A DNA stretch of 49,524 bases, taken from NCBI GenBank assembly GCA_903835265.1, contig CAILMG010000087.1:1-49524 (forward strand), written 5' to 3'. The DNA comes from an uncultured Methylococcus sp. (GTDB lineage: Bacteria; Pseudomonadota; Gammaproteobacteria; Methylococcales; Methylococcaceae). The notes beneath the pieces were generated by a model that did not search any database, was not told the DNA's origin, and saw only the letters and a program-made list of their open reading frames with translations. Numbering within the stretch: position 1 is the first letter of the stretch; each line of letters opens with the position of its first letter. Below are positions 2,809 through 5,853 of this stretch, one piece after another. A program made the translations under genes and the position numbers.

Positions 2809-3003
2809 ATGAACAGTGTGTCTGACATTATTACCTCGGCGTTTGGGATGATTCTGCTGGCCGCTTTGGCCTATGAATTGAAGCAACGCCGTAAACGCCT
2901 TCGGGAGCTTTATAACGTTCTCGATGCCGAAGATAAGCAGGTGGTCGCCGATCTTGATGAGATGGTGAAGCACGGTCTGATTATGCCTTACAGCGCTCAC
3001 TAA
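2809..3003 (+). CDS. Small single-span membrane protein between two P-ATPase genes
   Basis: 64 residues. One hydrophobic segment (about residues 5-22, T-S-A-F-G-M-I-L-L-A-A-L-A-Y-E-L) is followed by a strongly basic patch K-Q-R-R-K-R-L-R and an acidic helical tail ending Y-S-A-H. The basic patch predicts a cytosolic C-terminus. A strong ribosome site (AGAAGGAG, 9 bases before ATG) supports expression. Its position directly upstream of a CtpC-like paralogue recalls mycobacterial DUF1490/PacL proteins, small one-span scaffolds encoded beside CtpC. I see no clear sequence identity to PacL and no His/Asp-rich metal tail beyond the final His, so the parallel is architectural only. Confidence 0.75.
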   Translation: MNSVSDIITSAFGMILLAALAYELKQRRKRLRELYNVLDAEDKQVVADLDEMVKHGLIMPYSAH

Positions 3004-3011
3004 CCTTATTG

Positions 3012-5384
3012 ATGACCTTCATGAAACCCCTTATTCATGTTCTACCTGGTGAATTAATGATCGAGCACCCTGACTTTCTGAGGAGCCAGGGAACTCACTT
3101 AGGCTACGCATTGGCTCGCCGCGCACTCGCCGTTCCGGGGGTTGAAGCGGTTGCCATCGATACCTTGAAAGGTCATGCGCGCATCGCGCTCAGTCAGGAT
3201 CAAAGCGATCAAAAGGGATTACTGAATCGGGTCATGCAAGCCATCGCCTCCGAGTCAGAGGCCCTCAGTGAAGATCAAGTTCCAAACCCTGGGACATTAA
3301 CGACCATGCATTGGGTCCGAACCGGCGCCCAGATTCAAATGCTCACCATCAGCGTCCCAAAACCAGGCCACCTGATCCTCGATGATGCGGCGCTCAAAAG
3401 TCCAAAACCGCCCCTTTTTGAATCCATCAAGGACCGCGTCAAGACGCTTTCTGGCATCCAATCGGTTTTACTGGACCCCCATGGCCTGCTTCACATTCAC
3501 TACAATAGCCGGCGCATTACCCCTGAAAAACTGACCGCTGTGATGGAGAGGGCGTATACCCGCCACTTCGCTATCACCGGACTCAAGGACCCCAAGGCAG
3601 TCCCCATGAAGGTCTCAGGGGCAACGGTGGGACTGGGTACGGTCGGTGAATTCATGCTTCCGGTGGTCACACCGCTTGCCGCGGGCGTTCTGGTGGCGAC
3701 CAATTTCGGGATTATCAAGGATGCCGCTAACCAATTAACTCAAGGCAAGGTCGGGGTTCCTCTCTTCCATACGGCGCTCCTGACCTGCTCGATCGTCACT
3801 GGACAGGTTCTCGCCTTCGCGCTGACCGATTTCTCTCTGCGCTACTGGCAGCGCCGCTGGCGCCAGCGACTCGCTGATGAAACGCAGGCAACGATCAATC
3901 AGACGCTCCCCCTCATCAAGGAATCGCGTCGCATCGATAGCGAGGCCCTGGAACACCGAGTGGACACCCATTTACTGCAAACGGGTGACACCCTCCGCCT
4001 TTCTGCGGGCGAAATCGCTCCCGCCGACGGCGTGATTCTGACGGGGTGTGCTTTGGTTGACGAAACCCTCATCAAAGGGACTCCCGATCCCATTTTTAAA
4101 TCTGCTGGGGCCACCCTCTATCAAGGCTCCCGAGTGATCGGCGGAGAGGCCGATCTAGAAATCAAGGCGGTCGGCCTCAATACTCGAGCAGCCGAGATTG
4201 CACAGCGGCTTACCCAGGCGGCCATCGTCATCCCGAAGGACAAAGCCCTGAACGCAAAGGTGGAGTCGATGGGGGATAAAACAGCCCTGCCGACCCTCGC
4301 AACGGCGGGTGTTGGCTGGGTGGCCGGCGACCTGATCACCGTCGGTGCCATCTTGCATCAGGATTGGGTCAGTGGTCCTTTCCTCGCGGTTCCTTTGATG
4401 ACCCTCCATCACATGCGCAGTGCGCTGAGACTCGGTGCCGTTGTTCAACGCCCAGGCGCTCTGATGAACATATCAGAATGTCAATTTATCGTCATCGATG
4501 GAGATGATCCAAAACTGGCTGAAGCGGGGCTAGAGGTTCAACACATCGAGTCTCGAATAAGCGATATCGATAACCTGCTCCGCCACGTGGCCGGGGCTGG
4601 ACTCTACTTGGGTGATGCCCGCAGCGCGGCCCTCGCAAAAGCCGCCAAAGAAAAAGACATGATTGTTCGTCAGGCAGAGCTGATTCGCCTCGATGATCAG
4701 GGAATCCTGACCCGTCAAGGGGATCATCAGTTGCTCTTGAAGCAGAGTCCAGAAAGCGACAAGGGGATCCTTGAGGTCGTCATCGATGACCAACCCGTGG
4801 CCACAATCCACTTTGGTCCCTCAAAAGAACTGGCCCAAAAGGAGACGATGGCACACCTCATGACTGAGGGCTATGAGATCTTCCTCATGTCCTCCAAACC
4901 TGAAAAAGAGACCCAGGCACTGGCCCAGCGCCTCGGCATCAAAATGGCCGGAGGGGACCTTGATCAGGAAGGCAAACGTCGGTTCTTTGAAGGACTTCAA
5001 AAGCGAGGGGTTAAGGCCCTTTTCGCAGGACAGGTTAGCCAGAATCCTCTCCTGTTGGTTGCCGCCCATGCGACCATTGCCGTCGAAGACGTCTCGGATG
5101 CAACCCAAGCGGCTGATGTGGTCCTGATGGGGGGGTGCTATGAAACGCTCGATGAACTGCTGAGCGTCACCCTCTCCTATGCCCCTGATATTAAGAAAAG
5201 TGCCGGGATGGCTACGATTCCCAATCTTCTTTGTATCGCAGGCGCCTTCGGCGGCGTCCTTAACGGCATTACATCAGGGATTATTGCCAACATGGGGGTT
5301 CTCAACGTGGATCGCCAGATCGAGAAGAAACTCAAGGAGTCAGGTCGCGGTAAGCGGCGACTTTTACCCCGCATGACCGGTTAA
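3012..5384 (+). CDS. Catalytically dead P-type ATPase paralogue (pseudo-ATPase)
   Basis: About 790 residues with the P1B layout: two ferredoxin-like HMA-type regions in the first ~200 residues, a membrane block, an actuator-like domain, a membrane pair and a C-terminal P/N-like region ending in two helices. It aligns with the neighbouring intact ATPase, yet each catalytic motif is changed. TGES becomes K-G-T-P-D-P (4074-4091); D-K-T-G-T becomes D-G-D-D-P with only the Asp (4497-4499) kept; the HP motif becomes L-G-D; and GDGIND becomes A-G-Q-V-S-Q-N (5025-5045). The membrane motif also lacks CPC. No frameshift or internal stop interrupts it. It therefore should not cycle through a phosphoenzyme and more likely acts as a structural or regulatory partner. 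ATG 3012 is preferred over TTG 3009; ATG 3021 is also possible. It begins 8 bases after the small membrane protein. Confidence 0.87.
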   Translation: MTFMKPLIHVLPGELMIEHPDFLRSQGTHLGYALARRALAVPGVEAVAIDTLKGHARIALSQDQSDQKGLLNRVMQAIASESEALSEDQVPNPGTLTTMHWVRTGAQIQMLTISVPKPGHLILDDAALKSPKPPLFESIKDRVKTLSGIQSVLLDPHGLLHIHYNSRRITPEKLTAVMERAYTRHFAITGLKDPKAVPMKVSGATVGLGTVGEFMLPVVTPLAAGVLVATNFGIIKDAANQLTQGKVGVPLFHTALLTCSIVTGQVLAFALTDFSLRYWQRRWRQRLADETQATINQTLPLIKESRRIDSEALEHRVDTHLLQTGDTLRLSAGEIAPADGVILTGCALVDETLIKGTPDPIFKSAGATLYQGSRVIGGEADLEIKAVGLNTRAAEIAQRLTQAAIVIPKDKALNAKVESMGDKTALPTLATAGVGWVAGDLITVGAILHQDWVSGPFLAVPLMTLHHMRSALRLGAVVQRPGALMNISECQFIVIDGDDPKLAEAGLEVQHIESRISDIDNLLRHVAGAGLYLGDARSAALAKAAKEKDMIVRQAELIRLDDQGILTRQGDHQLLLKQSPESDKGILEVVIDDQPVATIHFGPSKELAQKETMAHLMTEGYEIFLMSSKPEKETQALAQRLGIKMAGGDLDQEGKRRFFEGLQKRGVKALFAGQVSQNPLLLVAAHATIAVEDVSDATQAADVVLMGGCYETLDELLSVTLSYAPDIKKSAGMATIPNLLCIAGAFGGVLNGITSGIIANMGVLNVDRQIEKKLKESGRGKRRLLPRMTG

Positions 5385-5412: not shown

Positions 5413-5853
5413 ATGACCAAACCACCGGTAAAGAAACCCATCCAACGGCTAAAGAGGAACCTCGACATCGGTTCGACCGCCGCCTTCCCCGCTAGCCCGT
5501 CGAGGGAAGATCAGTCGTCCGAGGAAGACATGCTGGCTCTTGAAAAGAATCTGGTTGCGCTCAACATCGATGCGGTCACTATCGAACGGATTGAAAAACT
5601 GCCCCACGACATCGGCTGGCTTTTGTTTACCGCAGGTGTCTTCGGGATTATTCTGCCTGGGATCATTGGAACCCCCTTTTTGGTCCTTGGTACCCTGATC
5701 ATCTGGCCCGGCACCAATCAGCGGGCGGAGCGCTGGCTGAAGGGACAATCGCCCAAGATGTTCAAAGGCAGCATTCGTCAGGTGAACCGTTTCCTCGATG
5801 ATCTCGAACGCCGCTACCCGGCCCCTCGGAAACGATCACGCACAACGCCTTGA
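5413..5853 (+). CDS. PGPGW-like small membrane protein, end of P-ATPase cluster
   Basis: 146 residues. The N-terminal ~60 residues are polar and basic with a helical stretch rich in Leu/Glu. Two closely spaced hydrophobic segments follow (about residues 75-97), reading I-G-W-L-L-F-T-A-G-V-F-G-I-I-L-P-G and then P-F-L-V-L-G-T-L-I-I-W-P-G. The short loop with L-P-G and W-P-G resembles the PGPGW putative transmembrane family, although the diagnostic P-G-P-G-W is not exact. The C-terminus is Arg/Lys rich. It starts 28 bases after the pseudo-ATPase on the same strand and faces a convergent gene, so it probably ends the transcription unit. Function is unknown; a membrane subunit or assembly factor for the ATPase pair is an inference. 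Confidence 0.7.
   Translation: MTKPPVKKPIQRLKRNLDIGSTAAFPASPSREDQSSEEDMLALEKNLVALNIDAVTIERIEKLPHDIGWLLFTAGVFGIILPGIIGTPFLVLGTLIIWPGTNQRAERWLKGQSPKMFKGSIRQVNRFLDDLERRYPAPRKRSRTTP

Follow-up and report, generated by a model that had tools for sequence, protein, structure and literature searches.

P-type ATPases are defined by a phosphorylated aspartate, and the locus described here raises the question of what a protein of this fold might do once its catalytic motifs have gone. The 49,524-nucleotide stretch of DNA that was analysed, hereafter the window, comes from a methane-oxidising Methylococcus sp. and carries a frame open for 791 codons (3009/3012–5384, + strand). The product, a pseudo P-type ATPase (PSI; 3012–5384, + strand), has all four catalytic motifs replaced, with the membrane residues D452, N739, C742, and N761 kept, and its gene lies near that of an intact P1B-like ATPase (ACT). 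The original prediction was that PSI is a maintained pseudo-ATPase, possibly a regulatory or structural partner of this pump.

Sequence and predicted fold of PSI

The start of PSI at the ATG at 3012 is supported by its homologues, which begin at the same residue (MTFMKP/MTPMKP). The proposal that the full-length protein lacks all four catalytic motifs also holds, with the replacements now read in alignment to ACT: TGES is replaced by KGTP, DKTGT by DGDDP, in which the first Asp is retained and K-T-G-T lost, and GDGIND by GQVSQN, with the HP position falling within LGDA. SGD is replaced by SSK. The motifs expected of a functional P-type ATPase (DKTGT, TGES, and GDGxND) are each present in 0/38 members of the PSI family, as is the HP motif of classic P1B metal pumps (0/38), and the CPC, SPC, or TPC motif that such pumps carry in TM4 is absent from the family, an HQDW/RPDY-type motif standing there instead.

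Despite the loss of its catalytic residues, PSI is predicted to retain the fold, with the AlphaFold model, Foldseek, and Pfam all agreeing with the P1B-like architecture originally proposed. The AlphaFold model, generated with 19 sequences as input (mean pLDDT of 85.5), comprises two N-terminal ferredoxin-like (HMA-like) domains, the membrane helices, the A domain, the P/N domain, and C-terminal helices; a family of basic HMA-like domains has reportedly been published under the name CoBaHMA. The top Foldseek match is CopA of Legionella (4bbj, E = 6.9e-31), with CopA, ATP7B, and a zinc pump making up the top PDB matches, and the sole strong Pfam domain is E1-E2_ATPase (PF00122, the actuator domain; E = 7e-18). 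The curated P1B model TIGR01525 scores 101.7 bits on PSI against a cut-off of 346, and no Rfam match was found. On this modelled fold and inferred ancestry PSI qualifies as a P1B-type ATPase, sharing the overall fold and domain order of the heavy-metal pumps CopA and ZntA (TIGR01525), from which it differs in lacking the catalytic motifs and CPC.

Retention of the first Asp of motif I in 30/38 PSI sequences, and of the GD of GDGxND in 16/38, leaves room for the idea that PSI is still an enzyme of non-standard chemistry, such as a HAD-like phosphatase acting through the remaining Asp, and the DGDDP of the window copy is superficially like the HAD DxD motif. However, the motif I Asp is Glu, Gln, Phe, or a gap in the other PSI sequences, and the GD is gone in the window's own clade (GQVSQN). 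With TGES, HP, and the ND pair absent from every PSI, and with the P/N domain less constrained than the membrane part, an activity of this kind appears very improbable.

Distribution and phylogeny

Whole-genome and public-contig searches place the relatives of PSI in Methylococcaceae (Methylococcus, Methylolobus, Methylotetracoccus, Candidatus Methylumidiphilus, and further MAGs) and in Planctomycetota. None of the 38 aligned PSI sequences keeps any of the four catalytic motifs, and all four are kept in 30/30 ACT sequences. Homologues retaining DKTG, which would have meant local decay, were accordingly not encountered (0/38). In a tree including other active pumps, PSI forms a clade of 38 tips with a support of 1.0 and no intruder, and ACT a clade with a support of 0.979, the simplest reading of these sequences being one ancient loss of the motifs followed by long maintenance, with no regain. 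Local decay or an assembly error is excluded by the identical motif losses in all 38 homologues; since these include the single-contig genomes G003, G021, G041, and G049, PSI is not a product of chance or misassembly.

A phage origin was rejected, with no relatives of PSI in viral contigs, as was a plasmid origin, with only ordinary pumps (21–24% identity) among the best plasmid matches. Among the matches examined from 398 Pseudomonadota genomes, only ordinary or non-CPC active pumps were seen outside the genome of the window; few candidates were scored per genome, and the absence of PSI from this sample is not proven. The frequency of PSI outside the sampled families is likewise uncertain, since phylum-wide planctomycete samples missed the family, which searches at the family level found. 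Three planctomycete PSI genes (L081 10635–12989, L168 7893–10073, and L169 6624–8816) encode a P/N domain that is further shortened or diverged.

Selection and conserved membrane residues

Relaxed selection, which would have counted against a maintained pseudo-ATPase, was not seen. Whole-gene dN/dS is 0.09–0.36 for PSI and 0.03–0.14 for ACT, indicating purifying selection on PSI that has not relaxed to neutrality; these values, and those by domain below, are simple pairwise counts over few pairs, without likelihood tests. Between the window and its two nearest relatives, dN/dS of the membrane helices is 0.024/0.056 in PSI and 0.028/0.033 in ACT, compared with 0.114/0.155 and 0.045/0.030 respectively for the P/N domain, and 0.152/0.086 and 0.033/0.028 for the A domain. 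The membrane helices of the window PSI are constrained like those of ACT, and its cytosolic engine is about 3–5 fold looser.

By the median ratio of tree distances, the evolution of PSI is about 3.9 fold faster than that of ACT, as that of a pseudogene decaying in the lineage of the window might be, however this explanation is scarcely tenable and already contradicted: nearly all members have an open frame, the motifs appear to have been lost once and long ago, dN/dS lies well below 1 with the membrane part constrained like that of a live pump, and the gene has been retained across two phyla. Catalytic loss fixed in a clade, together with dN/dS well below 1, is what would be expected of a pseudoenzyme under selection, and on sequence grounds PSI meets both. 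The clade support, the complete absence of the motifs, and the dN/dS range bear out the original view of PSI as a maintained pseudo-ATPase.

The Asp of TM4 (D452) is present in 38/38 PSI and 30/30 ACT sequences, whilst N739 and C742 of TM5 and N761 of TM6, each present in 36/38 PSI sequences, are also found in nearly all ACT. In CPC-type pumps the TM4 position reads ACPC, and the set of four residues is missing. The surrounding TM4 motif is of the HQDW/RPDY type in PSI and NSDxGTG in ACT. With its catalytic motifs all gone and its membrane part held as tightly as that of a working pump, PSI implies that the membrane half can by itself be the target of selection, and cells appear to need PSI for a purpose other than burning ATP. 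PSI is in this respect a natural separation-of-function system for the role of the membrane half, and its presence in Methylococcus, a genus with culturable strains, makes it directly testable.

Gene neighbourhood and co-occurrence

The gene order ACT, o192, s64, PSI, DUF454 protein is conserved in Methylococcaceae and Planctomycetota, with stop-to-start gaps of about 57, 40, 8, and 28 bases in the window. ACT (3–2132, + strand), which the contig end truncates at its N-terminus (relatives of full length have about 860–1120 aa), carries TGES, DKTGT, HP, and GDGIND, with NSDLGTGIRMAAPL in TM4 replacing the CPC region. An intact pump had been predicted next to PSI; it is indeed close by, but does not directly adjoin it, as o192 and s64 lie between the two. 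The conserved o192 (192 aa; 2190–2768, + strand) has a disordered N-terminus followed by a domain, and its family has no Pfam match above cut-off; the domain is weakly thioredoxin-fold-like (best Foldseek E = 0.04), a resemblance between predicted structures that is only suggestive. s64 (64 aa; 2809–3003, + strand) has a single hydrophobic helix at the N-terminus and ends in a conserved tail (RLRELYNVLDxEDKxVVAxLDxMVxxGxLxPY); nothing in Pfam or NCBIfam matches it above cut-off. The last gene of the conserved cassette (5413–5853, + strand) encodes a DUF454-like membrane protein, the window copy of which has a Pfam score below the family cut-off.

Several further genes are found around the cassettes. 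A family of proteins of about 110 aa, of which the single member scanned matched nothing in Pfam, is usually encoded just upstream of ACT (L065 3–428, L072 4993–5334, and others), and genes in which the HMA-like N-terminal region appears fused to DUF454 lie near the cassette at L065 7112–8203, L068 3460–4458, and L074 14890–16029. EcsC-family genes adjoin many cassettes.

PSI is almost always found with ACT, in the same operon. Across 38 Methylococcaceae genomes, 17 carry both genes, 1 ACT only, 4 PSI only, and 16 neither, with PSI present in 17 of the 18 genomes that have ACT, and the four PSI-only genomes all being fragmented assemblies with contigs stopping at or near the position of ACT. 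The exceptions are PSI copies lying away from ACT (L053–L058), one of them beside conjugation genes in the genome of the window, and ACT cassettes without PSI (G000:C28 and G085:C116). Distances in the PSI and ACT trees are correlated (r = 0.84, 0/2000 permutations), as is expected of co-inherited genes, and the correlation partly reflects shared species history.

The unlinked copies in several genomes, together with the single-contig genome G061, where two PSI copies lie away from the sole ACT cassette, lend some support to the alternative that PSI acts alone and reuses the pump fold as a channel for passive ion flow, a sensor of cations, or an organiser of the membrane, its link to ACT being a shared pathway and not a complex. 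Whilst the conservation of ion-site residues in the membrane without the engine would also suit such a role, all Methylococcaceae genomes with PSI in an unbroken locus have ACT, and the usual position of PSI is within the ACT operon, and we regard this explanation as credible but unlikely.

The unlinked copy in the genome of the window (L057; G000:C250, 5014–7353) is a second, diverged PSI, neighboured by the F-type conjugation genes TraG (TraG_N), TraH, and TraF and an FlhC-like regulator, and similar copies occur in two related MAGs.

Relation between PSI and ACT

A regulatory or structural partner of ACT is the reading of PSI that fits best, although it remains an inference, without complex, transcript, or activity data. 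It is drawn from the motif loss, the kept fold, the co-occurrence in operon and genome, and the membrane-focused purifying selection with residues common to ACT, with a subunit relation between the two inferred from operon and co-occurrence evidence only. We think it probable, though by no means assured, that PSI, a pseudo P-type ATPase of ancient origin, does not hydrolyse ATP but serves ACT as a membrane subunit or regulator, both the association and the activity being inferred. PSI, ACT, s64, and the DUF454 protein would on this inference share one membrane complex, in which phosphorylation, and with it the driving of transport, would fall to ACT alone. The membrane half of PSI could form an ion site, an ion path, or a dimer interface, and may bind, conduct, or gate the ion, or set the assembly and activity of ACT, with its passive cytosolic half following or restraining the ACT cycle, and s64 and the DUF454 protein as putative accessory membrane subunits. 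Against a partnership, the separate PSI copies may point to a role of PSI's own, and the cassettes without PSI may mean that ACT works without it.

More tentatively, and with somewhat less than even confidence, the pair may be a two-subunit pump in which PSI never uses ATP yet supplies a conserved membrane ion site. This would be an asymmetric P-type ATPase, akin to the ABC transporters in which one of the ATP sites is degenerate. The existence of the PSI family suggests that unequal pairs may be the working form of some P-type pumps.

Comparison with known systems

No description of a conserved pseudo- or inactive P-type ATPase family was found in the open-access literature, though prior notice is not excluded. 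In a large survey, 99.77% of the identified P-type sequences carry the DKTGT motif, with 22 of 9634 lacking it in intact form; these 22 are single point changes, which the authors took to be possible errors of sequencing, or possibly pumps that are non-functional or specialised (PMC3896382). While also P-type sequences with an altered motif, they do not, unlike PSI, form a conserved family in which every motif is replaced.

By analogy, the nearest precedents for the ACT–PSI model are KdpFABC and the PacL–Ctp effluxosomes, in neither of which do we know of a dead P-type ATPase. KdpFABC is a hetero-oligomer in which a P-type ATPase is joined by a distinct subunit that conducts the ion and by a very small subunit of one helix, the P-type subunit driving transport through another subunit. 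KdpA is a channel-type protein and, unlike PSI, not a relative of P-type ATPases, and the KdpB structures among the Foldseek matches of PSI are distant fold matches only. In the PacL–Ctp effluxosomes of Mycobacterium tuberculosis, several P-type pumps are brought together on one membrane platform by small membrane proteins, and a P1B-ATPase is likewise encoded alongside a small membrane protein of one helix, however the Ctp pumps described in the accessible parts of these reports work, none being dead (PMC9374683, PMC13043812). DUF1490/DUF6110, the domains expected of a PacL platform, have no match in s64.

Likely cargo

A hard divalent cation, Ca2+ or Mn2+ for instance, is the probable cargo. 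This is inferred, in the absence of transport data, from the TM4 Asp, which occupies the place of CPC in copper and zinc pumps, and from the Ca2+/H+ exchanger genes that adjoin many cassettes. Exchanger-like (Na_Ca_ex) genes lie beside the cassette at 12 Methylococcaceae and 8 planctomycete loci (L065 8293–9393, L070, L078, and others; Na_Ca_ex E = 6e-37 for one member), a hint of a hard cation such as Ca2+, but no exchanger gene is present in the 49.5 kb of the window. The second ACT cassettes that lack PSI (L059, G000:C28, in the genome of the window; L060, G085:C116) have genes for a polyphosphate kinase and for a PHO4-type phosphate transporter as neighbours, and CHAD-domain genes occur near several Methylococcus cassettes, a context suggestive of a connection with stores of polyphosphate or cations. 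Active P-type ATPases related to ACT, at L084–L093, also have unusual TM4 motifs (e.g. NAGFGYNMRLIAPL and VDYSCALKLSTP) replacing CPC.
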